This document shows positions 655-48,547 of a stretch of DNA of 64,000 nucleotides, piece after piece; position 1 is the stretch's first letter, and each line of letters starts with the position of its first letter. The notes under the pieces are model-generated. The model saw nothing but the letters and a program-made list of their open reading frames with translations, ran no database searches and had not been told where the DNA came from. Location: positions 806,001 to 870,000 of the forward strand of contig NZ_CP021377.1 in NCBI RefSeq assembly GCF_002157895.1, in the 5' to 3' direction. A program made the translations under genes and the position numbers. This stretch comes from Oceanisphaera profunda (lineage in GTDB: Bacteria > Pseudomonadota > Gammaproteobacteria > Enterobacterales > Aeromonadaceae).

Positions 655-896
655 AAACACTAAGCTTTAAAGCTATCTTGCCACGGAATACAGATTTTAA
701 AAACTAAAGCTCCTTGGCCACGGAATACACGGAAGAACACGGAAAATGAAGATAAAATCTGAATAAATATGTTTAGGGTGAAGCGTAAAGAGTGAAGGGT
801 AAACCCTAAGCCCTTTCTCGGCGCAGGGCACTATGTTTATCATTCAACATTAAAAACCATGGATTGCCGCGTCGTTGCACTCCTCGCAATGGCCAA
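655..896. repeat. Intergenic repeat block (three dispersed families)
   Basis: This gene-free stretch contains two CCACGGAATAC-type motifs (677-750), a run of four 7-base units GTGAAGC GTAAAGA GTGAAGG GTAAACC (778-805), and one arm of a REP-like palindrome, TGGATTGCCGCGTCGTTGCA (about 859-878) continuing to CTCGCAATGG. The last motif has another copy near 25,843-25,880. The block ends where the IS110-family element begins. No ORF is supported. Confidence 0.65.
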
Positions 897-916
897 GGAG
901 TCTTCCTATGCTTTCC

Positions 917-1095
917 CTGTTGGTTATAGACGTATAATCCAACAACCAAAAGAGAGGGGCTGAGGCTTTATTTGTCTTTAGTCTTTAAAGACTGTTCGCA
1001 ATGATAGCCGCCCTCTCTTGTTTAAGTAAATTTCGAACAGTTCATTGAGGCTAAGACCTCGTATTTAGGATTGCTGAAACTGCTTAAGCACCGGT
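917..1095 (+). ncRNA. Candidate bridge RNA (seekRNA) of the IS110 element
   Basis: Three successive hairpins fill the non-coding left end. A 5' hairpin is formed by GTTGG...CCAAC (919-944). A large loop is closed by AAGAGAGGG (950-958) with CCCTCTCTT (1011-1019) and contains the palindrome GTCTTTAAAGAC (981-992). A second loop is closed by TTAAG (1022-1026) with CTTAA and contains GAGG/CCTC. This is the order 5' stem, target loop, donor loop known for IS110 bridge RNAs. In the first loop, GTTCGCAATG (994-1003) pairs with the right flank CATTGCGAGC (2026-2035) over 10 nt with one G-U. In the second, ACAGTTCATTG (1037-1047) is identical to the right junction at 2020-2030. Expression and exact ends are not shown. 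Confidence 0.65.
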
Positions 1096-1117
1096 ATGTG
1101 CAACAGGAGAAACAAGA

Positions 1118-2011
1118 ATGAAAGTGGTTGTAGGTATAGATGTTAGCAAAGACTGGTTTGATATTGCCTGGAAAGAAAATGACCGCATTAAAACTCAGCG
1201 CTTTGACTCCACTGCTAGTGGAATAAATCAGCTTATGAAGGCCACGCCAGCAGACGCAATTTACGTGATGGAAGCCACGGGCGTTTATCATGCTCGCTTA
1301 GCTGTCACGCTCTTTGAAACCGAGCGTAAAGTGGCGGTGATAAACCCGTTAGTAATTAAGCGCTATGGGCAAATGAGGCTGTCTCGCGTTAAAACAGACA
1401 CCGCTGATGCAAGCTTGATTTTGAGCTACGGCGAAAACGTAGAATTTATGCTCTGGAAGCCTGAGCCTCACCACATACAAGAGCTGAAAGTCGCGCAAGG
1501 CTGGCTAGACGACCTCACTGAAGACATGACACGCTTGTCTAATCGTGGGCATGCACAGAGCTACTTAGTGGTCAGAAGTACAATGGTAGACAGGCAGTTT
1601 TTAAGGCGCAAAGAGCAACTTAAACAGGACATTACAGAGTGCGAAGCGCACTTGGAAAAACAAGTAAAAAAGCATTTTGCTGAGCTGTATAAGCTACTCA
1701 ACAGTATTCCCTCAATCGGTAGTAAAACAGCGACTCAGTTGATTATATCTACGGGTGGATTTACTAAGTTTATTAGTATTAAACAGCTCAGCGCTTATGT
1801 AGGCGTAAGCCCCACGACTTACGAATCTGGCAGCTCTGTTAGAGGGCGAGGTGGCATAGCCAAAATGGGGCAAGGCCGGCTACGTCAACTGCTGTATCTA
1901 TGCAGCTGGACAGCAAGAAAATGCAATCCATCCTGCGTGGCTCTGTATGAACGACTTCAAGCATTTGCAGTGGCAACTAAAAAAACAGCCTATTCACCAG
2001 AATTTGCTTGA
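1118..2011 (+). CDS. IS110-family DEDD transposase (bridge-RNA-guided recombinase), probably shortened at the C terminus
   Basis: The 297-residue protein has the N-terminal RuvC-like DEDD domain: Asp8 in GIDVSK, Glu in VMEATGVYH near residue 52, and the Asp pair in KTDTADAS near residue 92. A coiled-coil-like middle follows, then the C-terminal Tnp domain with the helix-hairpin-helix-like SIPSIGSKTATQL and the SGSSVRGRGG segment that carries the catalytic Ser in this family. The protein catalyses element excision and insertion guided by its RNA. After LYERLQ the sequence jumps directly to AFAVATKKTAYSPEFA; relatives have about 20 more residues here, of the type GK..-ALIAVANKLLKQ. I infer a small in-frame deletion that could inactivate the enzyme. 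RBS AGGAG lies upstream at about 1106. Confidence is high on family, moderate on the deletion. Confidence 0.88.
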   Translation: MKVVVGIDVSKDWFDIAWKENDRIKTQRFDSTASGINQLMKATPADAIYVMEATGVYHARLAVTLFETERKVAVINPLVIKRYGQMRLSRVKTDTADASLILSYGENVEFMLWKPEPHHIQELKVAQGWLDDLTEDMTRLSNRGHAQSYLVVRSTMVDRQFLRRKEQLKQDITECEAHLEKQVKKHFAELYKLLNSIPSIGSKTATQLIISTGGFTKFISIKQLSAYVGVSPTTYESGSSVRGRGGIAKMGQGRLRQLLYLCSWTARKCNPSCVALYERLQAFAVATKKTAYSPEFA

Positions 2012-2025
2012 AAAAAAGCACAGTT

Positions 2026-2125
2026 CATTGCGAGCGTAGCGAAGCAATCCAGTCTTAGTCATAGCCTTCTTGGCGCTGGGAGCTGTGTTTTTCACTCAAC
2101 ATTAAAAATTAAAAATTCAACATTG
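2026..2125. repeat. REP-like arm and 7-base repeat units right of the IS110 element
   Basis: The arm CATTGCGAGCGTAGCGAAGC continues to AATCCAG. It is followed by TTGGCGC TGGGAGC (2070-2083) and by CTCAACA TTAAAAA TTAAAAA TTCAACA (about 2096-2123). All of the latter keep a 7-base register. These are local members of the dispersed heptamer repeats described elsewhere in the window. Confidence 0.6.
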
Positions 2126-2138
2126 CCCTTCACCTAGG

Positions 2139-2152
2139 TTGACCTTGATCAA
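2139..2152 (+). promoter_or_regulatory. FNR-like operator upstream of arcA
   Basis: TTGAC-CTTG-ATCAA matches the FNR consensus TTGAT-N4-ATCAA with one mismatch; the centre ACCTTGATCAAGGT is a perfect palindrome. It lies about 345 bases before the arcA start. E. coli arcA is activated by FNR and has long leader transcripts, so an anaerobic activator site here is plausible. The A/T-rich TATTTAACAT at 2169 could be the -10 of a promoter activated from -41.5, but no start site is proven. The rest of the leader (2220-2497) shows no ORF. Confidence 0.45.
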
Positions 2153-2497
2153 GGTTACGTTTAAAACTATTTAACATTTCCGAGCTTGACTATTGTTATG
2201 CTCCTGTTAACTGTTAAAATAGTGCAACTTTAGGTAATGGACCTCTGTTTGTCCCGTCGGTCTATTTTGAGCACCATGCAGTAACCACATGGCAGCAACC
2301 ACAGGGGATGGCAGCAACTGCATGGGATGCAAATAAAAAAAGCTCAAAGCAGGCAGTGTCACTGGGCCGAAAGCTCGCTACTTAAACAGTAGTGTAGCGC
2401 TGCGTAAGAGGGTAGAAGCGTTACAAATGATCCACATTTCCTACTCCAGCGACGGTTGATACTCAACTCTATTTACATCTAATAAACAGGTAGGCAC

Positions 2498-3214
2498 ATG
2501 CAGACTCCACATATTCTTATTGTTGAAGACGAGTTAGTTACTCGTAATACCTTGAAAGGCATTTTTGAAGCAGAAGGTTATTCTGTTTTAGAAGCCACCG
2601 ATGGCGACGAGATGTATAAGGCGCTGTCGAATAACAACATCAACTTGGTGATCATGGATATCAACCTGCCAGGCAAAAATGGCTTGTTGCTGGCCCGTGA
2701 ATTGCGCGAGCAGCACAACCTCGCCTTGATGTTTTTGACCGGTCGCGATAACGAAGTCGATAAGATTTTGGGCCTAGAAATTGGCGCCGATGATTATATT
2801 ACTAAGCCCTTTAATCCTCGTGAGCTGACCATACGGGCACGCAACCTGTTAAGCCGCACCATGCAAACGCCGGAAGCGCCAGAAGAAGAGCGCCAAGTTG
2901 AAGCCTATCGTTTTAATGGTTGGACGCTAGACATTAACAGCCGTGCTTTGGTGAGCCCCAATAACGAAGTGTTCAAACTGCCGCGCAGTGAATTTCGCGC
3001 CATGATCCATTTTTGTGAGCAGCCTGGCCAAATTCAAAGCCGTGCCGAGCTACTGAAAAAGATGACCGGCCGCGAGCTTAAGCCTCATGATCGCACGGTA
3101 GACGTCACCATTCGTCGCATTCGTAAGCACTTTGAGTCTATGCCAGACACGCCAGAAATTATCGCCACCATCCACGGCGAAGGCTATCGCTTTTGCGGTG
3201 ACTTAGAAAGCTAA
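2498..3214 (+). CDS. arcA: ArcA, aerobic respiration control response regulator
   Basis: This 238-residue OmpR/PhoB-class response regulator is nearly identical to E. coli ArcA in length and sequence. The receiver domain (1-120) has the acidic pocket Glu10/Asp11, phospho-acceptor Asp54 in VIMDINLPG, Thr in LTGRD and Lys in TKPF. The winged-helix DNA-binding domain (about 135-235) includes [10 protein letters not shown] and HGEGYRFCG. When phosphorylated by ArcB under low oxygen, it represses aerobic respiration genes and activates fermentative ones. It is a single-gene unit with a long leader carrying an FNR-like site and a strong terminator just after the stop. The start [12 protein letters not shown] is the same as in E. 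coli. Confidence 0.98.
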
Positions 3215-3235
3215 GCACCAATCTAATACCCACTT

Positions 3236-3261
3236 AAAAACCCCGCCCGCGCGGGGTTTTT
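3236..3261 (+). terminator. Rho-independent terminator of arcA
   Basis: AAAAACCCCGC and GCGGGGTTTTT form an 11-bp stem with a CCGC loop, beginning about 22 bases after the arcA stop and ending in a T run. Confidence 0.92.
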
Positions 3262-3265
3262 CGTT

Positions 3266-3649
3266 TTAAGCTGGCGAACAGATACCAACCTAAGTAAGAG
3301 GATGATCTAAATACAAAATGATATCTAAGTCTTATCTCTTGTAGCTGCCAACTTGTTCGGCAGTCCTGCGGAGCAGGATAATATGATCAGTTAGTTTTAC
3401 AGAATGGTATAATGCATAAAACCGTGGCGAATAAATTGCCACCTACAAAAGTCAAATGCTATGTAGCCGTCCGGCTCTACGGTGAAGAGGACTTCGACGG
3501 TCTTGCGAAGCAGGATAATATGAGCAGTGTTCGCCTACAAAAAACAATTCTCAACACTCTTTAATGTTCCGCGCGCCTACAAAAGCTAGGGTCTCTTTTT
3601 AGGGCTGTTTTTGTTATTGTGCAGCTTCTGTTTATTAAGTATTTTTGCC
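3266..3649. repeat. Intergenic repeat block between arcA and rluE
   Basis: The block contains fragments of the element copied in full near 23,008 and 33,406. These are TGTAGCTGCCAACTTGTTCGGCA at 3341, then GGCGAATAAATTGCCACCTACAAAA near 3425-3449 as the opposite arm, and a second variant pair around 3460-3540 (GTAGCCGTCC...GACGGTCTTGC...CGCCTACAAAA). The motif TTTTACAGAATGGTA at about 3395 recurs inverted near 10,171-10,190. No ORF is supported apart from the upstream extension of rluE. Confidence 0.55.
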
Positions 3650-4258
3650 ATGAACGCCAAGAAACCACGCCCCAACTTTAGATCAAAATCGAAAGTCACC
3701 ACTAAAGCCCCAGCTAGTACTGGCCCTGCCGTGACGCTGCTGTTTAACAAACCTTATATGGTGCTATGCCAATTTACCGATGGTGAGGGCCGCCAAACCT
3801 TGGCGGATTTTATCAAGCAGCCGGGGGTATATGCGGCGGGTCGCTTGGACAGAGACAGCGAAGGCCTATTAGTACTTACCAATAACGGCGCACTTAATGC
3901 GCGCCTTACCCAACCTGGGCGTAAAACCGCCAAAACCTACTGGGCTCAGGTAGAAGGTGTACCCAGCGCCGCAGATTTGAATTTACTGCGCCACGGCGTG
4001 ACCTTAAAAGACGGTCCCACCCTGCCCGCCGAAGTGCGCATTATGGCAGAGCCCGACGTTTGGCCACGCACTCCGCCCATTCGAGATCGCCAGCACATTC
4101 CCACCACTTGGCTAGAGATCCGCATTATAGAAGGTCGTAATCGCCAAGTAAGACGCATGACCGCACACATTGGTTTTGCCACCTTGCGCTTAATTCGCTA
4201 CGCCGTGGGCGACTGGACCTTGGACGATTTACCCTCGGGCCAATGGAGAGCGGTATGA
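3650..4258 (+). CDS. rluE: RluE, 23S rRNA pseudouridine synthase
   Basis: An RsuA/RluB/E/F-family synthase that in E. coli makes pseudouridine 2457 in 23S rRNA. The protein is about 202 residues if started at the ATG at 3650 (MNAKKPRPN); a start 39 bases upstream is possible but adds a hydrophobic leader unlike the family. The LFNKPY motif opens the catalytic domain, and [17 protein letters not shown] contains the catalytic Asp. Near the C terminus, [20 protein letters not shown] is the conserved RNA-contact motif. There is no S4 domain, as in E. coli RluE. The stop overlaps the nudJ start (ATGA), so the two are translationally coupled, the same pair order as E. coli ymfC-ymfB. Confidence 0.94.
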
Positions 4259-4710
4259 GTCATCATCCTTTTGCGGTGACCGTGGCCATGATAGTGCACG
4301 CCGGTGAGCGCTTTTTAATGGTGGAAGAATGGCAGCAGGGTCGTATTCGTTATAATCAACCGGCCGGTCACCTTGAACCTGGCGAGTCTATCTTGGCGGG
4401 CGCCCAGCGGGAATTGCTCGAAGAAACTGGGCTGGATATTAAGCTCAAGCAAGGGGTGGCCATTTATCAATTTGAAGCACCGGATAACGGCACCCACTTT
4501 GTGCGCTTTACGTTTTGTGCAGAGGTGCCTAAGCCGCTTGCCACCCACCCTCAAGATCCTGATGGCGATATTATTCGCTGCCATTGGTTAACGCTGAGTG
4601 AGATTGAAGCCTTAGGCGAACAATTACGCAGCCCAATGATTTTAGCCTCGTTTAAAGATTATCTGGCAGGGGCGCGTTTTGAACTCAGCACCTTGAAACA
4701 GCAGCACTAA
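4255..4710 (+). CDS. nudJ: NudJ, Nudix phosphatase (HMP-PP / nucleoside phosphate hydrolase)
   Basis: The 151-residue Nudix hydrolase carries the full Nudix box: [20 protein letters not shown] continuing TGL, fitting GX5EX7REUXEEXGU. E. coli NudJ hydrolyses thiamine-precursor HMP-PP and nucleoside di- and triphosphates in the cytoplasm, using Mg2+ bound by the box glutamates. The start is taken at 4255, overlapping the rluE stop by four bases. An in-frame ATG four codons earlier lies inside rluE and is less likely. In E. coli, rluE-nudJ continue directly into mnmA-hflD-purB; here those three lie 11.4 kb further on. Confidence 0.92.
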
Positions 4711-5318
4711 CGTAGGCTAAATGTTGAATTTTTAGTGTTGAATGTTGAATGAAGAGCTGGAAGCTAAAAGTCGGAAGAAAGAGCTGGATTGCTACGCTCG
4801 CAATGAAATAAGAGCACAAACTCTGCAAAGCACACCGCCTTTTGTTTTATGCCGTCTTACCGGTACTGAATCTTCGTCATGCTGAACTTGATTCAGTATC
4901 AGCATGACGGCCCCGGTATCTCGTTCTTAGGTACTAAAACCTAAACCGAGATCCTGATTTTCATCAGGATGACGACTAAGAGCGGTGCCGAGCTAAACGC
5001 ATAAACACCGCCCTCTGTGTCCTTGCGATGAGTGCAACGACGCGGCAATCCATACCCACCTTTGGCGAGCGGTGAGCTTTCAGCTAAACAAAGAACAAGA
5101 TCCTGAAGCAAGTTCAGGATGACGGCTAATAACAGTCAAATGAAATTCAACATTCAACATTCAACATTCCACAGCGCCGCTTAAGCTTGCTATTAAAAAA
5201 TCAATCACTTAGCATTTATACCAGTAAAGTTTGCCTCATTTATGTCTAAAAATTGCGTAGTTCGCAGATTTTTTAGCTGATATATAGCGCCTCTTGGGTT
5301 ATCACGCGGAGCAGTAGT
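4711..5318. repeat. Intergenic repeat block between nudJ and mgtE
   Basis: About 600 bases packed with dispersed repeats. At 4723-4750 GTTGAAT-type units keep a 7-base register. At 4872-4978 there is a two-hairpin composite palindrome (CTGAACTTGATTCAG ... GATCCTGATTTTCATCAGGA). REP-like arms lie near 5020-5055, GATCCTGAAGCAAGTTCAGG at 5099, and ATTCAAC x3 at 5145-5168. A short TGCG/CGCA hairpin followed by six T's lies near 5255-5275 just before mgtE. I see no M-box riboswitch and no gene. Confidence 0.6.
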
Positions 5319-6659: not shown

Positions 6660-6699
6660 ACATAGCGCACCGCTTTTTAGTGTTGAGTGTTGAATTTTT

Positions 6700-7076
6700 C
6701 CGTCATCCTGACGCACGTCAGGATCTCGCTTTAAGTTTTAGGGCTAAGAGCAAGATACCGGGGCCGTCATGCTGAACTTGATTCAGTACCGGTATGACAG
6801 CAAGGGGCCAATGTCTGCATTTAAGCCGTCATCCTGATGCACATCAGGATCTCGCTTTAGGCTCTAGGGCAAAGAGCGAGATACCGGGGCCGTCATGCTG
6901 AACTTGATTCAGTACCGGTATGACGACAGGGAGCGGGATTTGGCTTTATGCCGTCATCCTGATGCACGTCAGGATCACGCTTTAGGCTCTAGGGCAAAGA
7001 GCGAGATACCGGGGCGAACCCGGTATGACAGCAAGGGGCCAATGTCTGCATTTAAGCCGTCATCCTGACCCTCACC
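6700..7076. repeat. Tandem cluster of composite two-hairpin palindromes
   Basis: Three copies stand head to tail (6700-6801, 6825-6927, 6950-7032), with a truncated fourth at 7056-7076. Each begins with CCGTCATCCTGA-YGCACR-TCAGGATC, continues through about 30 A/T-rich bases, and ends with GAGATACCGGGG...CCGGTATGAC. The 40-base stretch 6799-6838 recurs exactly at 7030-7069, which shows a 231-bp tandem duplication. Copies differ by paired changes (CCTGACGCACGTCAGG versus CCTGATGCACATCAGG) that keep the stem. No ORF. Confidence 0.8.
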
Positions 7077-7182
7077 AATTTTTCGCCGTTACCTTCGGCG
7101 GCCCCACATATTTTGCGTACTCTGTGGTTTTGGGTACAATATTGAGCAACTTCTAATACAATTAACTTACAGGTCTGTAACC

Positions 7183-8637: not shown

Positions 8638-8640
8638 GCC

Positions 8641-10083: not shown

Positions 10084-10333
10084 TTGAAAATGGTGAAGGG
10101 TAAGGGGTGAAGAGTGAAGAGTGAAGAGAACGACATAAACCAGCGCCAAGCCTGCAAAAGACGGTGAAGTAATACCATTCTGTAAAACTAGCTGTTCAGT
10201 ATTATCACTCTTAGTAAATACAGCACCTAAAGTCAGGCTGGACGGTGTTTTGTAGTCTAGCGCTTCAGCTGCTAGTCCCGCCTGAGCGGGAATGTTTAAA
10301 GCCTTCTTGCTTTGCAAGACCCACTACAAGGGT
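10084..10333. repeat. Repeat-rich spacer with five 7-base units
   Basis: GTGAAGG GTAAGGG GTGAAGA GTGAAGA GTGAAGA run in perfect 7-base register at 10,093-10,127, starting about 10 bases after the viaA stop. Further on are TACCATTCTGTAAAACTA (inverse of the motif at 3395) and TCCCGCCTGAGCGGGAA. A minus-strand 86-codon frame here is made wholly of repeat sequence and is not credible as a gene. The spacer ends with the left copy of the IS4 target duplication. Confidence 0.7.
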
Positions 10334-11764
10334 TAACACCATTCAGTTAAGCGTGTTTAGACCGAATGGGGTACCGAGTTTTTGATATCCGAACGGTCCT
10401 ACTCTTGGGCCGTTTTCTTTTTTCAGGCAGAATATAACGCTTCACACGCTCACGCATGGCCCGGAGTTTCTTCGGGATACTGCCGGGCGAGGCTATCGCA
10501 CACCACATCACTTCATCCTGAATGTCTCTTAATGCCATTACAAAGCTGATCCGCAAGGGAGAGACCTCTGCTTCGTGGGCGATGCGACTGATCTCCACGC
10601 GCACTAGATTGTAGGCAAGTAAAATCCCCCAAAGCTCCTGTGTAACTCCCTGAATCGACTGGCTACGCAACAAAACCGTGTCTTCCAGCATCTTGTGTTT
10701 GATTTCTCCGTAGCTGCTTTCGATTTCCCATCGCTCAAAATATACATCCAAAAGATCTTGAGCCGGATATTGCTGAGCGTCGATCAGCGAGCACAGCACA
10801 CCCTTGATATGATTGGGGCCGGTTGGGTTCGGATAAAGCACCAGACGCGCTTGCCAGAGTTCCGGCAGCGAGGGGTCTAGCTTTCTCGCTTGAGGTGAGA
10901 CCTGCATTTCCACCAGATGATCACGTTTTGAGAGTGATTTCAGAATCGTGTATTTCGTGTTTCCTTTTATCGGCACCATCCAGTGAGAATACGGGTGTTG
11001 GCGTTGCCAGTTGACCAGTAGTTCTGCACTCAGGTAGCAGCGATCAAACAGCGTCAGGCTGTTATCCGGGACATCGGTCAACAGTTGTTTGGCGTAGGTG
11101 ACTTCTCCTTTACGGCTGGGACCAAAGGCGACGTTATGGATCATCCGGCTGCGCAGTGAGCTGAAGGCACATAAACGAACAATGGGATATTCGGTATGAG
11201 ACGTTTTACTGTGCTTGATGTAGCCGAAGTGATCTGCCAGCTCAGGGGTATCAGCCGTGCGGAATTGGGTCCCGTCTATAGAAAAAAGTCGCAGCCCATG
11301 CCAAGTATCCTTGCTATCTTCTTCAACCCAGTGTGCAGCGGTGAGGTTAAACAAGGCTTCTAATGGCTCGCTGGTCAGACGTTGTCTGGCTTGGGGGATG
11401 GCACTGGGAGCCACTGAGTCTCCAAGCTTATCGGTGAGTTTAAGGTCGAGCTTATCAACGACATCGCTAATCGGACGATCTCGAAAAAGTCCCATAGCGA
11501 TGACCAACCATACCAACAACTCGGCAGGTAGTTTGCGTCGTCTTACGCTGGCTTTATCGGTCTGCTCCAGCGCGGTGTGGATCCAGTCCAAGGGAATGTG
11601 TTTTTGGAATGTCGATAGGGCTTCGGGAGCAGCAAATGTATCGGTGTCGAGTAACCAGTGTTCAAGCAAAATAATACCCTCATACCAGATGGTGATGAGG
11701 GTATTTTGGCACTACCTAAATATCGGTCAACCGCTCGCTAAAGTTTCTTAACTGAATGGTGTTA
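10334..11764 (-). mobile_element. Intact IS4-family insertion sequence (1431 bp)
   Basis: Perfect 18-bp terminal inverted repeats TAACACCATTCAGTTAAG lie at 10,334-10,351 and, inverted, at 11,747-11,764. An 11-bp target duplication ACTACAAGGGT is present at 10,323-10,333 and 11,765-11,775. E. coli IS4 is 1426 bp with 18-bp ends that also finish in CAGTTAAG, and makes 11-13 bp duplications. One transposase gene fills the element. Exact ends and an exact duplication point to a recent insertion, into intergenic repeat DNA downstream of viaA. Confidence 0.96.
10347..11669 (-). CDS. IS4-family transposase
   Basis: The 440-residue DDE transposase is full length for IS4 (442 residues in E. coli). 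It has an N-terminal DUF4372/IS4-type domain and then the catalytic core. The first Asp lies in LFSIDGTQFR, the second in TLFDRCYLS, and Glu in YFERWEIESSYGEIK, which fits the IS4-family YREK signature Y-x2-R-x3-E-x6-K exactly. The C terminus is basic. The gene is read from the right end of the element, its stop lies within the left inverted repeat, and no frameshift is seen. The element should be competent for transposition. Confidence 0.96.
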   Translation of the reverse strand: MLEHWLLDTDTFAAPEALSTFQKHIPLDWIHTALEQTDKASVRRRKLPAELLVWLVIAMGLFRDRPISDVVDKLDLKLTDKLGDSVAPSAIPQARQRLTSEPLEALFNLTAAHWVEEDSKDTWHGLRLFSIDGTQFRTADTPELADHFGYIKHSKTSHTEYPIVRLCAFSSLRSRMIHNVAFGPSRKGEVTYAKQLLTDVPDNSLTLFDRCYLSAELLVNWQRQHPYSHWMVPIKGNTKYTILKSLSKRDHLVEMQVSPQARKLDPSLPELWQARLVLYPNPTGPNHIKGVLCSLIDAQQYPAQDLLDVYFERWEIESSYGEIKHKMLEDTVLLRSQSIQGVTQELWGILLAYNLVRVEISRIAHEAEVSPLRISFVMALRDIQDEVMWCAIASPGSIPKKLRAMRERVKRYILPEKRKRPKSRTVRISKTRYPIRSKHA

Positions 11765-11775
11765 ACTACAAGGGT

Positions 11776-12203
11776 GGCACTTATCTTTGTGATTCGCTTA
11801 AACAGGCCACTTCTTTACTTAGATTGGTATAAACCAAGACTGAATATGCAGGCTGACTTGGTTGTTGTCCTTTATGCCGTCTTCCTGACGCAGGTCAGGA
11901 TCTCGATCTTAATGTTTGGGTTTAGGGTTAACCCTTCACTCCTTACACTTCACCGCTCTTGTGTAGGCGAACGCTTGTCGTAGGTAAAAGTACAATCGCA
12001 TTTCAACCCAGGCTGAACGATTTAAAACCCGCAGACCTGCAAACATAAAACAAAACCGGGCCGAAGTCCTCTTCGCCGAAGAGACGGGCCCTACAAAACC
12101 AACACCGCCCTTGTAGGCGAACGCTTGCTCTCGCATTACGCCGCAGGCGGAACGGGTTAGGTTAATCACCAACCCCCTAAAACATAAAACCGCGAGCATA
12201 CGC
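11776..12203. repeat. Repeat block between IS4 element and GNAT gene
   Basis: The block holds CCGTCTTCCTGACGCAGGTC (about 11,879), a 7-base-period run CTTCACT CCTTACA CTTCACC (about 11,934-11,954), and AAACCGGGCCGAAGTCCTCTTCGCCGAAGAGACGGGCCCTACAAAA-type hairpins (about 12,052-12,098) related to the 285-bp element. Short ORFs overlapping this block run through repeats and are not supported. Confidence 0.55.
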
Positions 12204-14368: not shown

Positions 14369-14380
14369 GGAGTGAGGATA

Positions 14381-17938: not shown

Positions 17939-19318
<1,380 letters not shown>

Positions 19319-19323
19319 AAACA

Positions 19324-19461
19324 GCGCCAGGCGCCTAGCACCAAGCGCCTAGCTAAAAAACACCGAGCCTTTAAAAGCTCGGTGTTTTTATTCATACACC
19401 AAACCTACAGAACAATGCTGTTTATCTTTAAGCTGGGCGCTAGGCGCTTAGTGCTCGGCGC
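19324..19461. repeat. Inverted pair of 7-base repeat arrays around the purB terminator
   Basis: The left array is GCGCCAG GCGCCTA GCACCAA GCGCCTA (19,324-19,351). The right array is its inverse type, TGGGCGC TAGGCGC TTAGTGC TCGGCGC (19,434-19,461). Both hold a strict 7-base register and could fold back on each other, enclosing the purB terminator. Confidence 0.8.
19355..19389 (+). terminator. Rho-independent terminator of purB
   Basis: AAAAAACACCGAGC pairs with GCTCGGTGTTTTT across the loop CTTTAAAA, with T run at the end. It lies between two inverted heptamer arrays. Confidence 0.92.
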
Positions 19462-20698: not shown

Positions 20699-20733
20699 GC
20701 GCCGAGCGCCAAGCACCAAGCACCAAGCGTCTA
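20699..20733. repeat. 7-base repeat array GCGCCGA/GCGCCAA/GCACCAA
   Basis: Five units in register, GCGCCGA GCGCCAA GCACCAA GCACCAA GCGTCTA, begin three bases after the roxA stop and precede its terminator. Confidence 0.85.
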
Positions 20734-28486: not shown

Positions 28487-28709
28487 AAAGGTCATGCCCA
28501 ACTGGGCTGAGGGCGCATTCTCTGTTAATTGACAGTGAATGTCCAGTATTATTTTGAAAAGAGGAGTGAAAGCGCCCAGCGCCGAGCTCCCTGCGCCAAG
28601 CTAAAAATCAGACCAACTAACATCGGCGCACTGTTTCATCTAACCACAGTGTTATCTAACCAACTTCAGTACCCGCTCTTTGTTAAGCTTGGTGCTGGGC
28701 GCTTATCTT
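28487..28709. repeat. Inverted 7-base repeat arrays between deaD and the GlsB-like gene
   Basis: GCGCCCA GCGCCGA GCTCCCT GCGCCAA (28,572-28,599) faces the inverse array TTGGTGC TGGGCGC (28,689-28,702), about 90 bases apart. The latter ends just before the stop of the small membrane-protein gene. The sequence between has no gene. Confidence 0.7.
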
Positions 28710-28973: not shown

Positions 28974-29169
28974 GCGCTAGGCGCCCTGCACCCAGCGCCT
29001 AGTTGAATGAAAAACATCGTCTTTTATTGACCTTCGCACTATGCCGTCATACTGGGCTTGCCCCCAGTATCTCGCTGTTAGTTTTAGAACCTAAATAGAG
29101 ATCCTGACTTTCGTCAGGATGACGGCAAAAATAAAAACCACGCACTTTGTTAAGCTTGGCGCTTGGCGC
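28974..29169. repeat. Heptamer arrays flanking a composite palindrome
   Basis: GCGCTAG GCGCCCT GCACCCA GCGCCTA (28,974-29,001) and the inverse TTGGCGC TTGGCGC (29,156-29,169) enclose a complete two-hairpin palindrome (29,043-29,126). In that palindrome the left stem is ACTGGG/CCCAGT and the right stem CCTGA/TCAGG, joined by ATCTCGC and AGAGAT arms. There is no gene in 28,950-29,194. Confidence 0.75.
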
Positions 29170-29194
29170 TATAACTTATTTAAGTAGCCTCAAC

Positions 29195-32341: not shown

Positions 32342-32433
32342 GCGCCCAGCGCCTAGATCCAAGCGCCGAGCTAAAAAACTAATCCACACTTTTTACCGGC
32401 TGGATGTTGAGCTGGGCGCTTGGTGCTCGGCGC
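32342..32433. repeat. Inverted heptamer arrays overlapping the 3' end of the luxR-type gene
   Basis: The left array is GCGCCCA GCGCCTA GATCCAA GCGCCGA (32,342-32,369). The inverse array is TGGGCGC TTGGTGC TCGGCGC (32,413-32,433). The second array lies inside the coding region of the regulator and encodes part of its tail. Confidence 0.8.
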
Positions 32434-33687: not shown

Positions 33688-33806
33688 GGCTTTATTTTAT
33701 GCTTGGTGCTTGGTGCTGACATTATACCGAAAACTATCCCTAAAGGGACATAGGCAAGCAGGGGTGACTTAAGTGAGCATAAGACTTTAAATTATTCGAA
33801 GAGTTG

Positions 33807-36471: not shown

Positions 36472-36541
36472 GGGGTTATCTCTCCCGAAAATAAAAAGGC
36501 CAAGTGTAAAGCGGCGAGCAGCGAGTCACAAGCGCTAGCGC

Positions 36542-40634: not shown

Positions 40635-40651
40635 GTCTGATGGAGTAAGTC

Positions 40652-41611
40652 ATGCCCCTCGCAACACAGGATGCCCACGCCTTTCATTTTCTGGTCGACA
40701 TGCTCGAGTCAGTGGAAATTGGCCTAGTCGTATTAGATTTAGAATTTAAAGTACAGCTGTGGAATGGCTTTATGGAAAACCACAGCGGACTTACGTCAAC
40801 GGCGGTACGGGAGCAGAATATTTTCTTACTGTTTCCTGAATTACCCGCAACTTGGCTAAAACGAAAAATAGACACGGTAGTGATGCTTAATACCCGCGCC
40901 TTTACCTCTTGGGAGTTGCGCCCTTATCTCTTTCGCTTTGGCAGTAGCCGCCCCATTACCGGCACTTCACCTTACATGTATCAAAACGTGACTATTAGCC
41001 CGCTCGCTGAGCCCGATGGCAGCATAAAACGCGTTTCTTTGATGGTGTACGATGTCACCGATGTGGCCTGTAGCCGCATTGAGCTAGAACAAGCGAATGC
41101 TCAGCTTAATTGTTTAAGTAAGACCGACAACTTAACCAAGTTGCTTAATCGTGGCGCCTGGGAAAGCCATCTCAATAGCGAATTTGAGCGCTTTCGGCGC
41201 TACGGTCATGATTGCACCCTGATCATGCTCGATATCGACAACTTCAAACGCGTCAACGATCAATATGGTCATCAGGTGGGGGATGACGTTATTCGCCACC
41301 TCGCCGAGACCATGCGCGCTTGCCTGCGCAGTACGGATCATTTAGGTCGCTACGGCGGCGAAGAATTTGCCATTATTTTGCCGGAAACTAGCCTTGAAGG
41401 CGCCTGTGTAATTGCTGAGCGATTGCGCCAAACCATCGCCCAAGCCGAGGTCCGCAGTCACAATGCGAATGTGAGTTATACCGTCAGCTTAGGACTAGCG
41501 ACCTTGCATAAGCAAACGGCCAGCAGCCAACAATGGTTACGCCAAGCGGACGAGGCCTTATATGCGGCCAAGCATGCGGGTAGAAACCAAGTGCTGTGTG
41601 CGGGCTTGTGA
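40652..41611 (+). CDS. PAS-GGDEF diguanylate cyclase
   Basis: The 319-residue cytoplasmic protein has an N-terminal PAS-like domain (about 10-130, LVVLDLEFKVQLWN). A short coiled coil and a GGDEF domain (about 150-315) follow. The active site is YGGEEF, the Mg-binding Asp lies in LIMLDIDNFKRVNDQYGH, and the inhibitory I-site RSTD stands five residues before GGEEF. All parts needed to make cyclic di-GMP from two GTP are present, with product feedback expected. It forms an operon with the frameshifted receiver-CheC gene. Repeats GTGAGGC overlap its stop codon. Confidence 0.93.
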   Translation: MPLATQDAHAFHFLVDMLESVEIGLVVLDLEFKVQLWNGFMENHSGLTSTAVREQNIFLLFPELPATWLKRKIDTVVMLNTRAFTSWELRPYLFRFGSSRPITGTSPYMYQNVTISPLAEPDGSIKRVSLMVYDVTDVACSRIELEQANAQLNCLSKTDNLTKLLNRGAWESHLNSEFERFRRYGHDCTLIMLDIDNFKRVNDQYGHQVGDDVIRHLAETMRACLRSTDHLGRYGGEEFAIILPETSLEGACVIAERLRQTIAQAEVRSHNANVSYTVSLGLATLHKQTASSQQWLRQADEALYAAKHAGRNQVLCAGL

Positions 41612-41635
41612 GGCGTGAGGCGTGAGGCGTGAGGC
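41608..41635. repeat. GTGAGGC x4 tandem repeat
   Basis: Four perfect 7-base units begin within the stop codon of the cyclase gene. The same unit is repeated at 46,404. Confidence 0.92.
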
Positions 41636-41682
41636 AAAATAGTTAAGTAGAGCCACGCTAAACAACAAACCTAAATACCATT

Positions 41683-41719
41683 AAAAAAAGCCCAGTCGCA
41701 TAACACGACTGGGCTTTTT
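41683..41719. terminator. Bidirectional terminator between the cyclase gene and fabV
   Basis: AAAAAAAGCCCAGTCG pairs with CGACTGGGCTTTTT across the loop CATAACA, A-rich on the left and T-rich on the right, serving the convergent genes. Confidence 0.93.
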
Positions 41720-41740
41720 ACTACTGTGATTTAACTGCGT

Positions 41741-42940: not shown

Positions 42941-43055
42941 GAAGTTATGTGCCTCGGTTGCTCTTAGAAAGAGTTCTTAGATAGATGCTAAAGATACCTT
43001 ATTCTAAAGCAAAGTGAGGTAGGAACCAAAGCGGGAAGACAGACCTTAAGGACTA

Positions 43056-43095
43056 TCGCAACGGAATCCACGAAACCCACGGAAAAATAGAGATC
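43056..43095. repeat. End motif of the CAACGGAA-type element
   Basis: ATCGCAACGGAATCCACGAA ACCCACGGAAAAATAG corresponds to one end of the repeat units at 21,530 and 58,888; the matching other end is not visible before the IS3 element. Confidence 0.45.
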
Positions 43096-43259
43096 AAATC
43101 TGAAAAAAATTTTATTGATAACAGCCTAACAAAAGGCAGCAGCACGCTCTCTTAAAGCCATTAGGTTTAGTTGTTATCAATCAAATGCCTTGGTCTTTCG
43201 ATCAGATACTGGTGGAATGGCCCCGAATAAGTAGACACTTCTTCAGAGTGAGGAAGTGT

Positions 43260-43583
43260 ATGCAATACCGAACCAAACGTAAATTTAGTAATGAATTTAA
43301 GCGGGAAGCCGTTAAACTCTCTGTTTCATCACCTAAAACATTAGCTGACATCTCCAGTGAGCTGGGGGTGCATCCGAACGTATTAAGCCGTTGGCGTCGA
43401 GAGTGGATAATGGACAAACCAGATTCGAAACAGGATAAGCCCGTTAAAAATGAAGGGCCAGATAAAAGCCTTCGTCAGTTAGAGCAAGAGAATAAGCGTC
43501 TTAAGAAAAAGCTAGAGCGCGCTGAACTGGAGCTCGATATCTTAAAAAAGCTGGAAGAGTACGCTACCAAGACACGGCGATAA
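43260..43583 (+). CDS. IS3-family transposase OrfA
   Basis: The 107-residue DNA-binding subunit has a helix-turn-helix (KFSNEFKREAVKLSVSSP, then LADISSELGVHPNVLSRWRR) and a C-terminal leucine-zipper coiled coil (LRQLEQENKRLKKKLERAEL). The start is the ATG at 43,260 preceded by GAGGAAG; the longer frame from 43,185 begins outside the element and is rejected. At 43,544-43,550, A-AAA-AAG in the zero frame allows -1 slippage to give the OrfAB transposase. Confidence 0.93.
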   Translation: MQYRTKRKFSNEFKREAVKLSVSSPKTLADISSELGVHPNVLSRWRREWIMDKPDSKQDKPVKNEGPDKSLRQLEQENKRLKKKLERAELELDILKKLEEYATKTRR

Positions 43584-44452
43584 AATTTGCCTTCATCGAC
43601 CGGTATCGCAGCATGAGCTGGACGGTACTGGTGATGTGTCGCGTACTCCAGGTATCTCGTGCGGGTTTTTATTGTTGGAAGCAGCGCCAACGAGAGCCTT
43701 CGGTTCAGGCGGAGCGTCATCGCAGTTTGCTCGCCTTTTTATTGGCTGAAGCTGAACAGCAACATGGTATTGCGGGTTATCGGAAATTGTGGCGCGAAGC
43801 GGTTGACCAAGGCTTTGCTTGTGGTAAGAATCAAGTGCAACGCCTATTACAGAGTGTGGGCTACCGTTCTTGTGTCGCGCCTAAGCCTGGGCATCGTAAA
43901 CATAAGCCAGGCATCGCTGCGACGCCGAATCTGTTAAACCGACAGTTTACGGTTGCAGAAGAGAACCGTGTTTGGGTGTCAGATATAACTCAAATACGCT
44001 GTGAAGAAGGCTGGCTCTATCTGGCGGTGATAATCGATCTTGCTACCAGACAGGTAGTGGGCAAGGCTCAAGGGCCGGTTAATAGTGCTGAATTAGTGAT
44101 TAAGGCCTTAAAGCAGGCTTGGAAGAAGCAGAAGCCTGATGGCCGAGAGCTGATGTTCCACTCAGACCAGGGCAGCCAATATCATTGTATGGCGACCATG
44201 ACGTGGTTGAATAAACGTAAAGTGACTATCAGCATGTCTCGCCGGGGAAACTGCTGGGATAATGCGTGTTCAGAAAGCTTTTTTGCTTTACTGAAAAAGG
44301 AATGGACCCGTCGTTTAGGGCTGTTAACTCGTAAAGAGATGGCAGAAGAAATACACTTCTACATCACGCAGTATTACCACAAAGTAAGACAACACACTGC
44401 GCTGGGAGGATTAACCCCCAACGCATATGCGCAGCAACTTAATGCTGCTTAA
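43550..44452 (+). CDS. IS3-family transposase OrfB (DDE integrase part, reached by -1 frameshift)
   Basis: Read from the slippage point, this gives 300 residues. HTH_21 region FIDRYRSMSWTVLVMCRVLQ comes first, then an rve integrase core. The catalytic residues are Asp in WVSDITQIRC, Asp in FHSDQGSQYH, and Glu in NCWDNACSESFFALLKKEW, a DDE triad with the usual D-D-35-E spacing style. The C-terminal YYHKVRQHTALGGLTPNAYA is typical of the IS3 family. There is no stop between the slip site and the core. The first internal ATG is at 43,613. Confidence 0.93.
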   Translation, partial: AGRVRYQDTAIKFAFIDRYRSMSWTVLVMCRVLQVSRAGFYCWKQRQREPSVQAERHRSLLAFLLAEAEQQHGIAGYRKLWREAVDQGFACGKNQVQRLLQSVGYRSCVAPKPGHRKHKPGIAATPNLLNRQFTVAEENRVWVSDITQIRCEEGWLYLAVIIDLATRQVVGKAQGPVNSAELVIKALKQAWKKQKPDGRELMFHSDQGSQYHCMATMTWLNKRKVTISMSRRGNCWDNACSESFFALLKKEWTRRLGLLTRKEMAEEIHFYITQYYHKVRQHTALGGLTPNAYAQQLNAA

Positions 44453-44543
44453 ACTGGTGTCTACTTTAGTCGGGCCATTCCATGGCTGTCGTTTTCACCT
44501 TCCAGCTCTCAGCTTCTGGCTGACGGCTGTCTTTCTTCCCCCT

Positions 44544-44571
44544 CACCCTTCACGCTTCACTCCTCACGCCC
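44544..44571. repeat. 7-base repeat run CACCCTT CACGCTT CACTCCT CACGCCC
   Basis: Four units in 7-base register, the complement of the GTRARGN type, lie in the spacer between the IS3 element and radD. Confidence 0.75.
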
Positions 44572-44639
44572 TTTATTTTTGATTTCTTAGCTTTTTATTA
44601 GCACACTGCTGCTCTGTTCGCTTACCGTTAAAGTCGATT

Positions 44640-46394
44640 ATGTTTACCCTGCGCCCTTATCAGCAAGAGGCGGTGGAGCGCACGCTCACCTACTTTCGCC
44701 GCCATGATGACCCTGCCGTATTAGTGCTGCCTACCGGTGCGGGCAAGAGCTTGGTGATTGCCGAGTTGGCACGCCTCGCCCGCGGCCGTGTCTTGGTTTT
44801 GGCGCACGTGAAAGAGCTGGTGGAGCAAAACCACGCTAAGTATCAAAGCTACGGTAAAGAGGCGGCGATATTCTCGGCAGGCCTCGGTAAAAAAGAGGCC
44901 CACACTCAGGTGGTGTTTGGCTCTGTGCAGTCGGTGGCGCGCAACTTGGAGGCTTTTAGCCAATTTAGCTTAGTTATCATCGATGAATGCCATCGGGTAT
45001 CCGATGATGACGACAGCCAATACTTGCAAGTGGTGAATCATCTGCACGAGTCCAATCCTAAGCTCAAAGTGCTGGGCCTAACGGCGACGCCCTATCGCTT
45101 AGGCATGGGCTGGATTTATCAAACCCATTATCATGGTTTTGTGCGCAGCCGTAAGCCGCGTTTTTTTAAGCATTGCTTATTTGAGCTGCCGCTGCGGCTG
45201 ATGATCAAACAAGGTTATCTTTGCCCGCCAGATATCGTTGATGCACCTGTGGTGCATTATGATTTTTCAAGGCTCTATGAACAGGGCTTATTTACTGAGC
45301 AAGCATTAGAACAAGAGCTGGCGCGCCAACCCAGAGTTACCCCACACATAGTGCAGCAAATCCAAGACTATGCAGTGGAGCGTGTGGGCGTGATGGTGTT
45401 TGCCAGCACGGTGCGCCACGCGGCAGAAGTAGCTGGGCTGTTACCGCCGAAGCAAACCGCCCTGATCACTGGCGATACCCCAGGGCCTGAGCGCGATGAG
45501 ATTATTCGCCGCTTTAAAGCCCGCGAGCTGAAGTTTTTAGTGAACGTGTCTGTGCTGACTACCGGCTTTGATGCGCCGCACGTGGATGTGATTGCCCTGC
45601 TGCGCCCCACCCAATCAGTGGCGCTATATCAGCAAATCATTGGTCGAGGCTTGCGCCTAAGCCCCGATAAAACCAACTGTTTAGTTTTGGATTACGCGGG
45701 CAATAATATGGACATTTTCGCCCCCGATGTGGGCGAGCCCAGACCCAATCCGGATACCACGCAGGTGCAAGTGCTGTGCCCAGCTTGTGGCTTTGCCAAT
45801 ATTTTTTGGGGTAAAACCGACGAACAAGGCAATGTGCTGGAGCACTTTGGCCGTCGCTGTCAGGGTTTATTCTCTCATGCAGACGAGCCAGAGGAATTAG
45901 GCGAGCCTTGCGGTTATCGTTTTCGCTTTAAATCTTGCCCGCAATGCTTGGCTGAAAATGACATCGCCGCCCGCCAATGCCACGACTGCGGCTGTGTGTT
46001 GGTGGATCCCGACAAGAAGCTTAAAGAAGCGCTGGCGCTGAAAGATGCGCTTATCTTACGCTGTGCCGGCATGAGCTTAGATGAGGGCTCCGGAAAATTT
46101 GGCCCAGCCCTCAAAGCCACCTATTACGATGAAGATGGCACTGAGCTACAGCAATGGTATGCTTTTGACGCTAAGGGCAAGACAGGGCGTTTTTATCTGG
46201 AATTTGTACGCCCCCACTGGCCCGCGCCGGGCTTTGAGCCTGAGCTTAATAACCTAGCCGACGTGCTGGCACTGGCTGAAAAGTTTCGCCACCCAGACTT
46301 TGTAATAGCCCGTAAACATAAAAAAGGCTGGCGTGTTAAAGAAACCCTGTTTGATTACCAAGGCCGCTTTCGACTGGCGAATGCTTTGTCTTAG
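44640..46394 (+). CDS. radD: RadD (YejH), superfamily 2 helicase-like DNA repair ATPase
   Basis: The 584-residue protein has [10 protein letters not shown] (Q-like motif), Walker [11 protein letters not shown] (about 31-40), DECH box (IIDECHRV), [10 protein letters not shown] (motif III) and [12 protein letters not shown] (motif VI). Next comes a zinc-binding region with cysteines CPACGF...CQGLF...CPQCL...CHDCG (about 380-455). E. coli RadD interacts with SSB and stimulates RecA strand exchange in double-strand-break repair. The start at 44,640 gives MFTLRPYQQ as in the family. It is monocistronic; a heptamer microsatellite follows the stop. Confidence 0.94.
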
Positions 46395-46397
46395 GCC

Positions 46398-46477
46398 GTG
46401 AGGGTGAGGCGTGAGGCGTGAGGCGTGAGGCGTGAGGCGTGAGGCGTAAGGCGTAAGGCGTAAGGCGTAAGGCGTAA
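46398..46477. repeat. Heptanucleotide microsatellite: GTGAGGC x6 then GTAAGGC x4
   Basis: There are ten perfect 7-base units (46,404-46,445 and 46,446-46,473), with partial units on both sides, between radD and dacB. The one-base switch from GTGAGGC to GTAAGGC divides the array into two homogeneous blocks, as expected from copy-number growth of each variant. It is about 70 bases upstream of dacB. Confidence 0.96.
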
Positions 46478-46547
46478 TTATTAGCCCGATAAAAGTAAGC
46501 TCAACCTAATTTTCCATCATTTTATTACTGAAAACGAAGAGACATTA

Positions 46548-48002
46548 ATGCGTTCAACTATTGTCGGCCTTTCGGCCTTGCTGCTCAGCGTGAGTGCGGT
46601 GATTAATACCGCGCACGCCACTGTTTCACCTGCCCCCGCCAATGGCCAAGCGGCCTGGATACTGGCAGATGCTAAAACGGGAAACATTGAAGCCAGCCAC
46701 AACAGTGAGCTGTTATTAAAACCCGCTTCTACGCAAAAGTTAGTGACTACTTTGGCGGGCGCCTTAGCATTGGGCCCAGATTGGCGCTACCAAACGCAAG
46801 TCTATTATCGTGGCGTGCTTGATAACGGTCATTTAGTGGGTGATTTATTGGTCGACTTCGTCGGTGACCCCACCCTCAAACGCGAGCAGTTACGTGACCT
46901 ACTTAAGCGTAGCGGCGTCAAGCAAGTGAGCGGTAACCTGCTGCTTAATCAACAGCGTTTTAGCGGCTACGACCGAGGCAATGGTTGGTCTTGGAATGAC
47001 TTAAGCGTGTGTTATACCTCCCCCGTAGCGGCGCTAATTTTAGACCGCAACTGCGTGCAAGGTGCCTTGTATGCCAATACTGGCCAAGCGGCGCGGGCCA
47101 CCGTGCCCGCCCATCAGCCCGTTAAGGTCAGTGCCGAGGTTAAAGTGGTGAACAGTGCCGAGCAAAAACGCAGCTTTTGCTCGTTGGATGTTGAGATGAC
47201 ACCGCCTAACCAATATCGCCTTACGGGCTGTATTGGCCCGCGAAAAGAGCCCTGGCCCTTACGTTTTGCTATTCAAGATGTGAACGCTTGGGGTAAAGAT
47301 TTAAGCCGCTGGGCACTGGGGCAAGCGGGCATTCGCCTTTCTGGCACTATTAAAGACAGCAGTATTCTCGTGCAAACAAGCACTCACTTAGCCGCGCAGG
47401 ATTGGCAGCCAGTGGCCAGCCATCAATCGCCGTCCTTAAAAGAGCTAAGTCGCACTATCTTAGAGCACTCAGATAATCTGTATGCAGACAGCTTGTTGCG
47501 CACACTCGGTGCCGAACATTTTCGCCAGCCCGGTAGCTTCGCTAATGGCACTCAAGCAGTTCGCGAAATACTACTAAAAGAAGCCAATCTCGACTTAGGC
47601 CCCAGCTGGCTTGCAGACGGTTCAGGGTTATCGGCGCACAATTTACTGCGCGCCCAAGACTTGCTAGCCGTGTTGTTAGTGATTGCCAATGAACCGCGCG
47701 CTCAGTGGTTAAAGGCGCTCTTACCGGTGAGTGGCGAAAGCGGCACCTTGTTGTATCGCAAGAGCGTGCAAGACCCCAGCCTTAAAGGCAAAATTCAGGC
47801 GAAAACCGGCACCATTGCTCATGTGCAAAACTTGGCCGGATTTTTAGATACCAACAGCGGCCAGCAAAAAGTGTTTGTGCTGTTACAAAATGGCTTATCT
47901 ATTAGCCCCCAACATGAAAAAGACATCGCCGCCGGCGTGGGCGAATGGCCAGCCCGGCGCTTTGAGCGTGAGTGGCTCACGGAGAAAGTGATTAGGGATT
48001 AG
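46548..48002 (+). CDS. dacB: DacB (PBP4), D-alanyl-D-alanine carboxypeptidase/endopeptidase
   Basis: The 484-residue class C penicillin-binding protein has a signal peptide (about 1-24, cut after AHA). The nucleophile motif SxxK is Ser61-Thr-Gln-Lys64 (KPASTQKLV), SxN is in EHSDNLYADS, and KTG is in QAKTGTIAHVQN. A large insert domain between the first two motifs (about 90-290) is typical of PBP4. It removes terminal D-Ala and cleaves cross-links in the periplasm. The heptamer microsatellite immediately upstream could affect its promoter spacing. Confidence 0.96.
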   Translation: MRSTIVGLSALLLSVSAVINTAHATVSPAPANGQAAWILADAKTGNIEASHNSELLLKPASTQKLVTTLAGALALGPDWRYQTQVYYRGVLDNGHLVGDLLVDFVGDPTLKREQLRDLLKRSGVKQVSGNLLLNQQRFSGYDRGNGWSWNDLSVCYTSPVAALILDRNCVQGALYANTGQAARATVPAHQPVKVSAEVKVVNSAEQKRSFCSLDVEMTPPNQYRLTGCIGPRKEPWPLRFAIQDVNAWGKDLSRWALGQAGIRLSGTIKDSSILVQTSTHLAAQDWQPVASHQSPSLKELSRTILEHSDNLYADSLLRTLGAEHFRQPGSFANGTQAVREILLKEANLDLGPSWLADGSGLSAHNLLRAQDLLAVLLVIANEPRAQWLKALLPVSGESGTLLYRKSVQDPSLKGKIQAKTGTIAHVQNLAGFLDTNSGQQKVFVLLQNGLSISPQHEKDIAAGVGEWPARRFEREWLTEKVIRD

Positions 48003-48547
48003 GGACTGGTGAGTGCTGAGTGCTGAGTAAAATAAAGTATAGCGCCCGGCGCTAAGCACCAAGCTCAATAAGAAGCGGTGTTTATCCCTATGCCGTCATC
48101 CTGACGCACCTCAGGATCTCGCTTTTATCTTTAGGCTTTAAACATAAAAGCGAGATACCGGAGCGAGTCCGGTATGACAGCAAATAATCAAAACCTAGCC
48201 CCCTGCCGTCATCCTGACGCACGTCAGGATCTCGCTTTAGATCTTTAAAGACTAAAACCTATTTGCCACGGAAGGCACGGACAAAGGTCGGAAAAATAGT
48301 GATCAGATCTGAATAAAACCGGAGAGGAGTGAGGGGTAAATGGTGAAGAGGACTAGCCTTAAGGGCAGTGCGAGCACCAAGCTCAACAAAAGACGGGGTG
48401 ATTGTTTATGCCGTCTTCCTAATGCACATCAGGATCTCGGTTTAGTGTGTGGGTACTACCTGCTTATCACTTAGCTTGTCCGCTTTACGCTTCACACCAC
48501 ATTCACACCTGTTAAACTGGGTGCAATTAATTCGTTAGGAGATAGGT
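48003..48547. repeat. Repeat block between dacB and grxA
   Basis: In order: GAGTGCT x2 (48,011-48,024); GCGCCCG GCGCTAA GCACCAA (48,042-48,062); a composite palindrome (48,093-48,178) and half of another (48,205-48,232); CTATTTGCCACGGAAGGCAC (about 48,261); GTGAGGG GTAAATG GTGAAGA (48,329-48,349); another palindrome half at about 48,412; and CTTTACG CTTCACA near 48,484. No gene. Confidence 0.65.

Follow-up and report, generated by a model that had tools for sequence, protein, structure and literature searches.

The window analysed here is the whole stretch of 64,000 nucleotides (bases 806001-870000) from the single-contig 3.51 Mb genome of Oceanisphaera profunda (contig NZ_CP021377.1; genome label G000), in which short arrays of 7-base units recur at or between protein-coding open reading frames (ORFs), not within a 23S ribosomal RNA (rRNA) helix. 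Our study relates these arrays to elements that resemble the intervening sequences (IVS) of 23S rRNA and carry a gene of the PF05635 family between inverted heptad arms. The radD protein of the window shares 94% identity with its counterpart in Ca. Oceanisphaera merdipullorum and 85-87% with those of other Oceanisphaera, and the sister genome G040 has 86-97% DNA identity to the window's genome in aligned blocks, mostly 91-97%. The heptads were assigned to classes of our own labelling: A (GTRARGN), B (GCRCCNA), C (GTTGART), D (AGCYNNA), E (RGGGAYT) and F (ACGYNNT).

All 20 positions listed in the first-pass annotation match a heptad class, by loose regular expressions written after inspection, the match at 2070 being weak. 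Class A arrays lie at 778..797 (+), 10093..10126 (+, 10 nt past a stop), 11934..11953 (-) and 44541..44567 (-), with a class A-like array at 48329..48349 (+). At 41608..41635 (+), the first unit of a (GTGAGGC)4 array includes the stop codon (41609-41611) with which the upstream gene ends, and the longest array of the window, (GTGAGGC)6(GTAAGGC)4 at 46404..46477 (+), begins 10 nt past the radD stop; its G040 counterpart has chiefly class F matches. A class C array at 4720..4751 (+), about 10 nt past the stop at 4710, faces the class C array (ATTCAAC) at 5145..5173 (-) that closes the pair. Class B provides a left arm at 19324..19353 (+), directly past the stop at 19318, and a right arm at 19432..19461 (-), with a terminator-like hairpin between them by eye; both arms are class A in G040. 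Further class B arms pair at 28572..28601 (+) and 28687..28702 (-), where the G040 counterpart has class A arms by eye, at 28974..29001 (+) and 29154..29170 (-), the latter longer by two units in G040, and at 32342..32369 (+) and 32411..32433 (-); the inward partners at 28687 and 29154 were absent from the original list. Several of the window's pairs form inverted terminal arms. Other class B arrays occur at 20699..20728 (+, 4 nt past a stop), 33701..33716 (-), 48042..48070 (+) and 48995..49018 (-, past a terminator-like hairpin by eye). A weak class B remnant of GGCGCT type occupies 2070..2083 (-), followed by class C-like or ATTAAAA-type heptads without assigned strand at 2096..2124. Finally, GATTAGG and then TGAGTGC heptads at 47987..48028 (+) span the dacB stop codon (48000-48002); this stop falls inside the GATTAGG repeat (47987-48005), and the array also encodes the last residues of the protein.

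The dominance of period 7 in the window's genome, proposed in the first-pass annotation, is confirmed. In the window, Tandem Repeats Finder reports more short arrays at period 7 than at any other period, and there are 10 exact runs of 10 or more matches at period 7, compared to 1, 0 and 1 at periods 6, 8 and 9. In an 864 kb sample of the same genome (the window plus 40 stretches of 20 kb), we counted 54 intergenic arrays of period 7, 5 of period 6, 1 of period 8 and 13 of period 9, while five approximate dinucleotide shuffles averaged 0.6 period-7 arrays; across this sample, period 7 exceeds both its neighbours and shuffled intergenic sequence. The accompanying claim that no other period is common needs correcting: period 9 runs second and is not absent, and period 14 is common too, as alternation of neighbouring units would lead one to expect. 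Genome-wide, four successive GTRARGN units give 107 overlapping matches and three GCRCCNA units 113, with none for either reversed control. The units had also been described as at least three unrelated types; there are indeed several classes, at least six among relatives, but they are unrelated only in part, since GCRCCNA, AGCYNNA and ACGYNNT have a common GC-centred skeleton and some classes intergrade. An excess of the 7-nt unit and variation in unit number among relatives, the marks of heptanucleotide simple sequence repeats, are both present.

Sharing of the arrays by relatives is uneven. Oceanisphaera pacifica has 12 intergenic period-7 arrays in 152 kb and O. litoralis 3 in 120 kb, while at the same threshold Zobellella maritima has 1 in 200 kb and Oceanimonas baumannii 0 in 100 kb, and 65 outgroup loci (1.29 Mb, mostly Halomonas and Marinobacter) hold 4 arrays each at periods 7 and 6. 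Three successive GTGAGGN units occur in 18 of 61 family genomes, all 18 of them from the window's genus. The class A grammar is found in 18 of 398 genomes of the phylum, including the window's, and its reversed pattern in 4. Class E was rejected as a marker across the phylum, as it matched 4 of the 398 genomes but its reversed control also matched 4, two genomes (the window's and G368) being common to both.

The arrays are strongly oriented with respect to genes, as placed by our own ORF calls rather than by annotation. Among 204 arrays of at least two units in the 864 kb sample, 78 lie in sense and 4 in antisense orientation between -20 and +30 of a stop codon, where bases up to 30 nt past a stop make up 10.4% of intergenic sequence; in relatives, 28 of 86 arrays are stop-proximal in sense and 3 in antisense orientation. 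Arrays are found in 50/108 convergent, 72/315 tandem and 12/115 divergent gaps. With strict patterns, solo pairs point inward in 20 cases and outward in none for class B, and in 5 and none for class A, and facing arms frequently enclose a terminator. An opposite token follows within 450 nt for 81 left-hand tokens, and in 54 cases it is of the same class, compared to 25.4 with shuffled labels (maximum 38 in 2000), 5 of the 54 closures being a CACGGAA repeat that is not a heptad. We discarded the idea that the arrays serve to place stop codons in all frames, on the reasoning, unscored, that some classes contain no stops; Rho sites, or recognition by known proteins in the manner of CsrA or TRAP, were weighed only.

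Orthologous sites swap class between species, often in both arms jointly. When class strings are compared over the 44 orthologous gaps in which G000, G040 or both have an array, 32 differ and 12 agree, some of the differences arising from pattern thresholds, and several arrays common to the two genomes differ by whole units. At concatenated position 143379 (about 903379 in G000), class B arms in one genome correspond to class F arms in the other and the terminator is conserved. In the gap between alaA and cls of the 23 genomes in our genus set, the class, assigned by eye, requires 14 changes on a protein tree, about the number for shuffled labels (mean 14.4). The two arms of this gap match in sense orientation (mean 12.1 in 20 genomes; null 6.5, maximum 10.3 in 5000), a match to which arms that themselves form the terminator stem may contribute part. 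Some Zobellella-type genomes have a single AGCTGGA unit in this gap and others about 9 to 11, within closely similar flanks. Exchange of whole cassettes was considered and rejected: the terminator is kept at 143379 while both arms change and the interior changes too at other sites, so that no single mode of exchange applies. The suggestion of a common copying mechanism that adds 7-base steps is supported in part. Such copying does occur, as the unit-number changes at alaA-cls and in G040 show, but slippage alone predicts neither the sense placement on the stop side nor the inward same-class pairs, and it leaves unaccounted for both arms changing together and the link to PF05635.

This link emerged when we read 20 distant class A places, spread over 7 genomes; at one of them (L325, in G294), inward arms enclose an ORF that belongs to PF05635 (23S_rRNA_IVP). 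In the genus, PF05635 matches occur at 30 places in 18 of the 23 genomes, and in none of 14 control genomes. Of these 30, 25 were located by tblastn; within a flank range of about 300 nt, 23 of the 25 (uncollapsed) have a period-7 array, 11 of them on both sides, compared to 186 of 1536 control genes, 12 of them on both sides. Class C arrays are present near the gene at each of the five remaining places. In stretches centred on the gene at 28 loci, period 7 is found at 25, period 8 at 1 and period 6 at 1. Outside the genus, period-7 arrays accompany 15 of the 18 plasmid loci fetched from 30 matches, mostly cyanobacterial, and 10 of 11 loci on viral contigs. As many loci are near copies, proteins more than 85% identical were merged, which leaves arrays at 12/14 genus, 14/17 plasmid and 6/7 viral-contig loci, or 32 of 38 in total, with both-sided arrays at 21; among the same 38, period 6 is found at 3, 8 at 4, 9 at 1, 11 at 2, and 5 and 10 at none. 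An Azospirillum plasmid copy (L390) lies inside 23S rRNA (Rfam RF02541) and has heptad arms.

The window's genome has three PF05635 genes: L348, with degenerate class A arms by eye that fall below threshold, L372, beside class C-like arrays, and L363, beside GGGATGA-like arms. In L347, L361 and L363, the predicted N-termini of the PF05635 ORFs run through the heptad array and yield repetitive peptides. In several genomes, elements recur in the gap between cysD and cysN, named by eye (L349-L351, L353, L356-L358, L362 and L366), and in several of them the final codons of the upstream gene form a hairpin with an inverted repeat of themselves that lies directly before the heptads. In the distant genome G235, ORF-less inverted class A arms occupy what is apparently the same gap (L338, about 880-1010). 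On cyanobacterial plasmids (loci L374, L375, L378 and L388), PF05635 genes lie between ribonucleotide reductase genes and between CRISPR-associated genes.

The two arms of a gene-bearing locus resemble each other in inverted orientation, and kin proteins tend to have kin heptads. At the 28 loci where arms were found on both sides, with near copies retained, the similarity of the downstream arm to the reverse complement of the upstream arm is 0.659 (null 0.149, with 0.316 the highest of 5000; 0.138 for the same-strand control). Arm and protein similarity are correlated among 29 representatives (Mantel r 0.56) and among the 13 from the genus (r 0.78), with 0 of 5000 permutations equal or above in either case, and the arms of the nearest protein are closer than average at 22 of the 29. 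Every class is represented among gene-bearing loci of the genus: A by L344-L346, B by L354, C by L360, L368, L369, L372 and L373, D by L349, L359 and others, E by L352 and others, and F by L366. Classes D and F are near each other, the proteins of L350 (D) and L366 (F) being 83% identical. Genomes with a class A gene are richer in GTGAGGN matches (4 vs 19 genomes, p 0.008), in a comparison picked post hoc. Solved structures among PF05635 relatives comprise two distinct sequences, the nearest being XCC0516 (PDB 2GSC, five chains, E 2.8e-34), which we take from its locus name to come from Xanthomonas campestris and presume to be a pentamer, as the five chains would fit. One four-helix-bundle protein of the window's genome is a weak relative of Avd, an accessory protein of diversity-generating retroelements (NF033474, E 1.2e-5, below cut-off).

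Bringing together the polarity, pairing and placement that the arms usually show, the rapid turnover of class, the changes in unit number, and the association with the gene and correlation with its protein, we think it probable that each array of the window is either an ORF-less copy or a relic of an IVS-like element, and that the heptad arrays are the arms of these elements, grown in 7-base steps. A full element would consist of a heptad arm, a gene for a four-helix-bundle protein of about 120 residues (PF05635/TIGR02436) and an inverted heptad arm. The gene-bearing form would be the parent, with arms and gene travelling as one unit, and the solo arms its derivatives, settled close past stop codons and around terminators. 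The PF05635 protein may recognise the heptads as an oligomer, perhaps with one heptad unit per subunit, which could account for a fixed period with some positions free; slippage might afterwards extend the arrays in 7-base steps.

Several observations weigh against this reading. No PF05635 gene lies beside the window's arrays, and although class B arrays are frequent in G000 and G040, neither genome yielded a class B gene. Five of the 23 genus genomes, two of them incomplete, have no PF05635 match, and one genome without a match (G020) still has 156 GTGAGGN matches; the presence of any PF05635 gene shows no link with the number of such matches (p 0.44). Of the 20 distant class A places, only L325 was found to hold a gene, and its protein is not closest to those of class A in the genus. 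At 7 of the 29 representatives, the arms of the nearest protein are no closer than average. Polarity is less strict once the patterns are loosened to a token set that takes in two non-heptad repeats, same-class neighbours then being 61 inward and 14 outward, and the strand lock is weak in distant genomes (9 sense vs 4 antisense of 26 arrays). By eye, we noticed neither a target-site duplication nor a clean empty site in orthologous comparisons. Facing solo arms have a similarity of 0.886, compared to 0.891 for same-class arms of other loci, so the pairs are not fresh mutual copies; arm-to-arm copying and fine base-pair selection were rejected, facing arms being as alike as random arms of their class. 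Lastly, the gene could home into pre-existing arrays instead.

This last alternative, in which arrays that exist for some other cause are entered by a gene whose protein recognises their class, would explain why the majority of arrays have no gene and why arrays persist in gene-less genomes, and also fits the cysD-cysN gap, with its solo class A arms in L338 but gene-bearing D or F elements in the genus. We nevertheless find it unlikely, because a guest would be expected often outside heptad arrays, whereas 32 of the 38 distinct PF05635 loci examined, and the 23S rRNA copy too, are armed at period 7. If the arrays were plain microsatellites, born of slippage that favours 7-base steps and gathering in the unconstrained sequence past stops, one would expect the differences in unit number between close relatives with similar flanks, the homogeneous sequence of the longest arrays and the heptamer excess of other bacteria described in the available part of PMC4692102, where a polymerase-footprint idea for 7-base slippage steps is also cited. 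Such an origin leaves unpredicted the sense-strand lock, the inward polarity (25 vs 0 with strict patterns), the same-class closure, the protein-arm correlation and the two-sided arms at PF05635 loci, and in the outgroup loci period 7 has no advantage over period 6 (4 each); we regard it as quite improbable.

A function at the RNA level, with the arrays selected as hairpins or protein-binding elements in the 3' untranslated regions at gene ends, accords with their stop-proximal placement on the sense strand, their peak frequency in convergent gaps (50/108) and low in divergent ones (12/115), the retention of a terminator at one site while both arms change, and an R/Y variation compatible with G-U pairing. 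It is very doubtful all the same: 17 tandem gaps also have same-class right arms, with no convergent gene end there, fine pairing is not seen between facing arms, and class at alaA-cls has no phylogenetic signal. Repetitive extragenic palindromic (REP) sequences, bacterial interspersed mosaic elements (BIME) and REP doublets forming hairpins (REPIN), which go with REP-associated tyrosine transposases (RAYT), are short extragenic sequences that occur scattered at the ends of genes and form inverted pairs. The heptad arms resemble them in being short, extragenic, dispersed and arranged in inverted pairs, and PF01797 (Y1 transposase) matches occur in 18 of the 23 genus genomes, three of them in the window's genome. 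Mobilisation of the arms by such an enzyme is scarcely credible, as the one of these three genes that we read is flanked by other repeats, of GTAG type by eye, and not by heptad arms, and as G001 and G052, both heptad-armed at alaA-cls, are among the five genomes that lack PF01797. The gene read, RAYT-like, lies between apparent GTAG-type REP sequences at 5400-6860 of L131 (about 85400-86860 in G000).

Other repeats and mobile sequences accompany the heptads. At 6700-7015 of the window and elsewhere there are dispersed intergenic repeats of GCCGTCATCCTGACG type, of CCACGGAA type and of an element of about 280 bp with tens of full or partial matches, occasionally nested, shell-like, with heptad arms. 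The roughly 280-bp dispersed element within one G040 cassette is a separate repeat. The ORFs at 1118-2011, 10347-11669 and 43185-44452 of the window resemble insertion-sequence transposases by eye.

Cleavage by RNase III has been reported for IVS elements in their rRNA form. In the sections available of PMC4990558, the Coxiella IVS has inverted terminal repeats around an S23 ORF, with a 28-bp terminal stem, and variable-number heptameric direct repeats upstream of the ORF. The gene-bearing elements described here likewise enclose an S23/PF05635 ORF in inverted arms, as far as that account goes; unlike the 23S rRNA IVS, they lie between protein genes, are mostly ORF-less, number many per genome and use several heptad classes. 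The accessible text of PMC4692102 describes the GGGNATC / GGGGAYT heptamers of Xanthomonas and Nostoc, almost the same word as our class E, as intergenic, with fixed and free positions, and near the 3' end of the upstream gene; it gives 70 convergent pairs for one Xanthomonas genome and 75 for another, counts Xanthomonas campestris among the organisms with GGGAATC heptamers, and treats the repeats as G-quadruplex-forming, with no protein partner named in that text. The TAACTGA direct repeats of Beggiatoaceae, cyanobacteria and Bacteroidetes, according to the parts seen of PMC4679880, form intergenic heptamer arrays of patchy distribution, with indels chiefly in 7-nt steps between two Cyanothece strains. 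Unlike our stop-side arrays, those of the Guaymas genome are mostly directly upstream of start codons, and with 169 direct sets and one indirect they form no inverted pairs (PMC4679880, same parts). The first-pass annotation knew of no described system of this kind in this group, a statement that must be narrowed, as these partly seen reports cover intergenic heptamers in other gammaproteobacteria, namely Xanthomonas (PMC4692102) and Beggiatoaceae (PMC4679880). On the same partial sources, heptamer repeats, IVS elements and heptamers in the Coxiella IVS (PMC4990558) are already in print. In one open-access library, with few subscription journals and no bioRxiv preprints covered, and judged by titles and abstracts, nothing on the topic was found for Oceanisphaera, nor any paper tying intergenic heptamers to PF05635.

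More tentatively, and with our own expectation leaning against it, bacterial heptamers in general (in this genus, filamentous cyanobacteria, Xanthomonas and perhaps Beggiatoaceae) could be ends and relics belonging to a single widespread class of minimal selfish elements that have a four-helix-bundle protein only, with the spacing of its subunits setting the period. The oligomer would then read the heptads as RNA or DNA, one unit per subunit, the free positions being unread bases, and the protein might, with no known transposase involved, drive insertion into rRNA loops, into hairpins and at the 3' ends of genes. PF05635 proteins are widespread, and apart from rRNA insertions no established function for them is known to us. 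The link described here supplies a candidate protein for the repeats and a candidate target for the protein, and predicts which heptads each PF05635 protein should bind. As presented in the available parts of PMC4692102 and PMC4679880, the period of 7 in published heptamers lacks a settled reason. If the elements move, they would represent a class of mobile element without a known transposase. On our reading, a bacterial repeat of a puzzling kind would gain a protein partner and a testable explanation.

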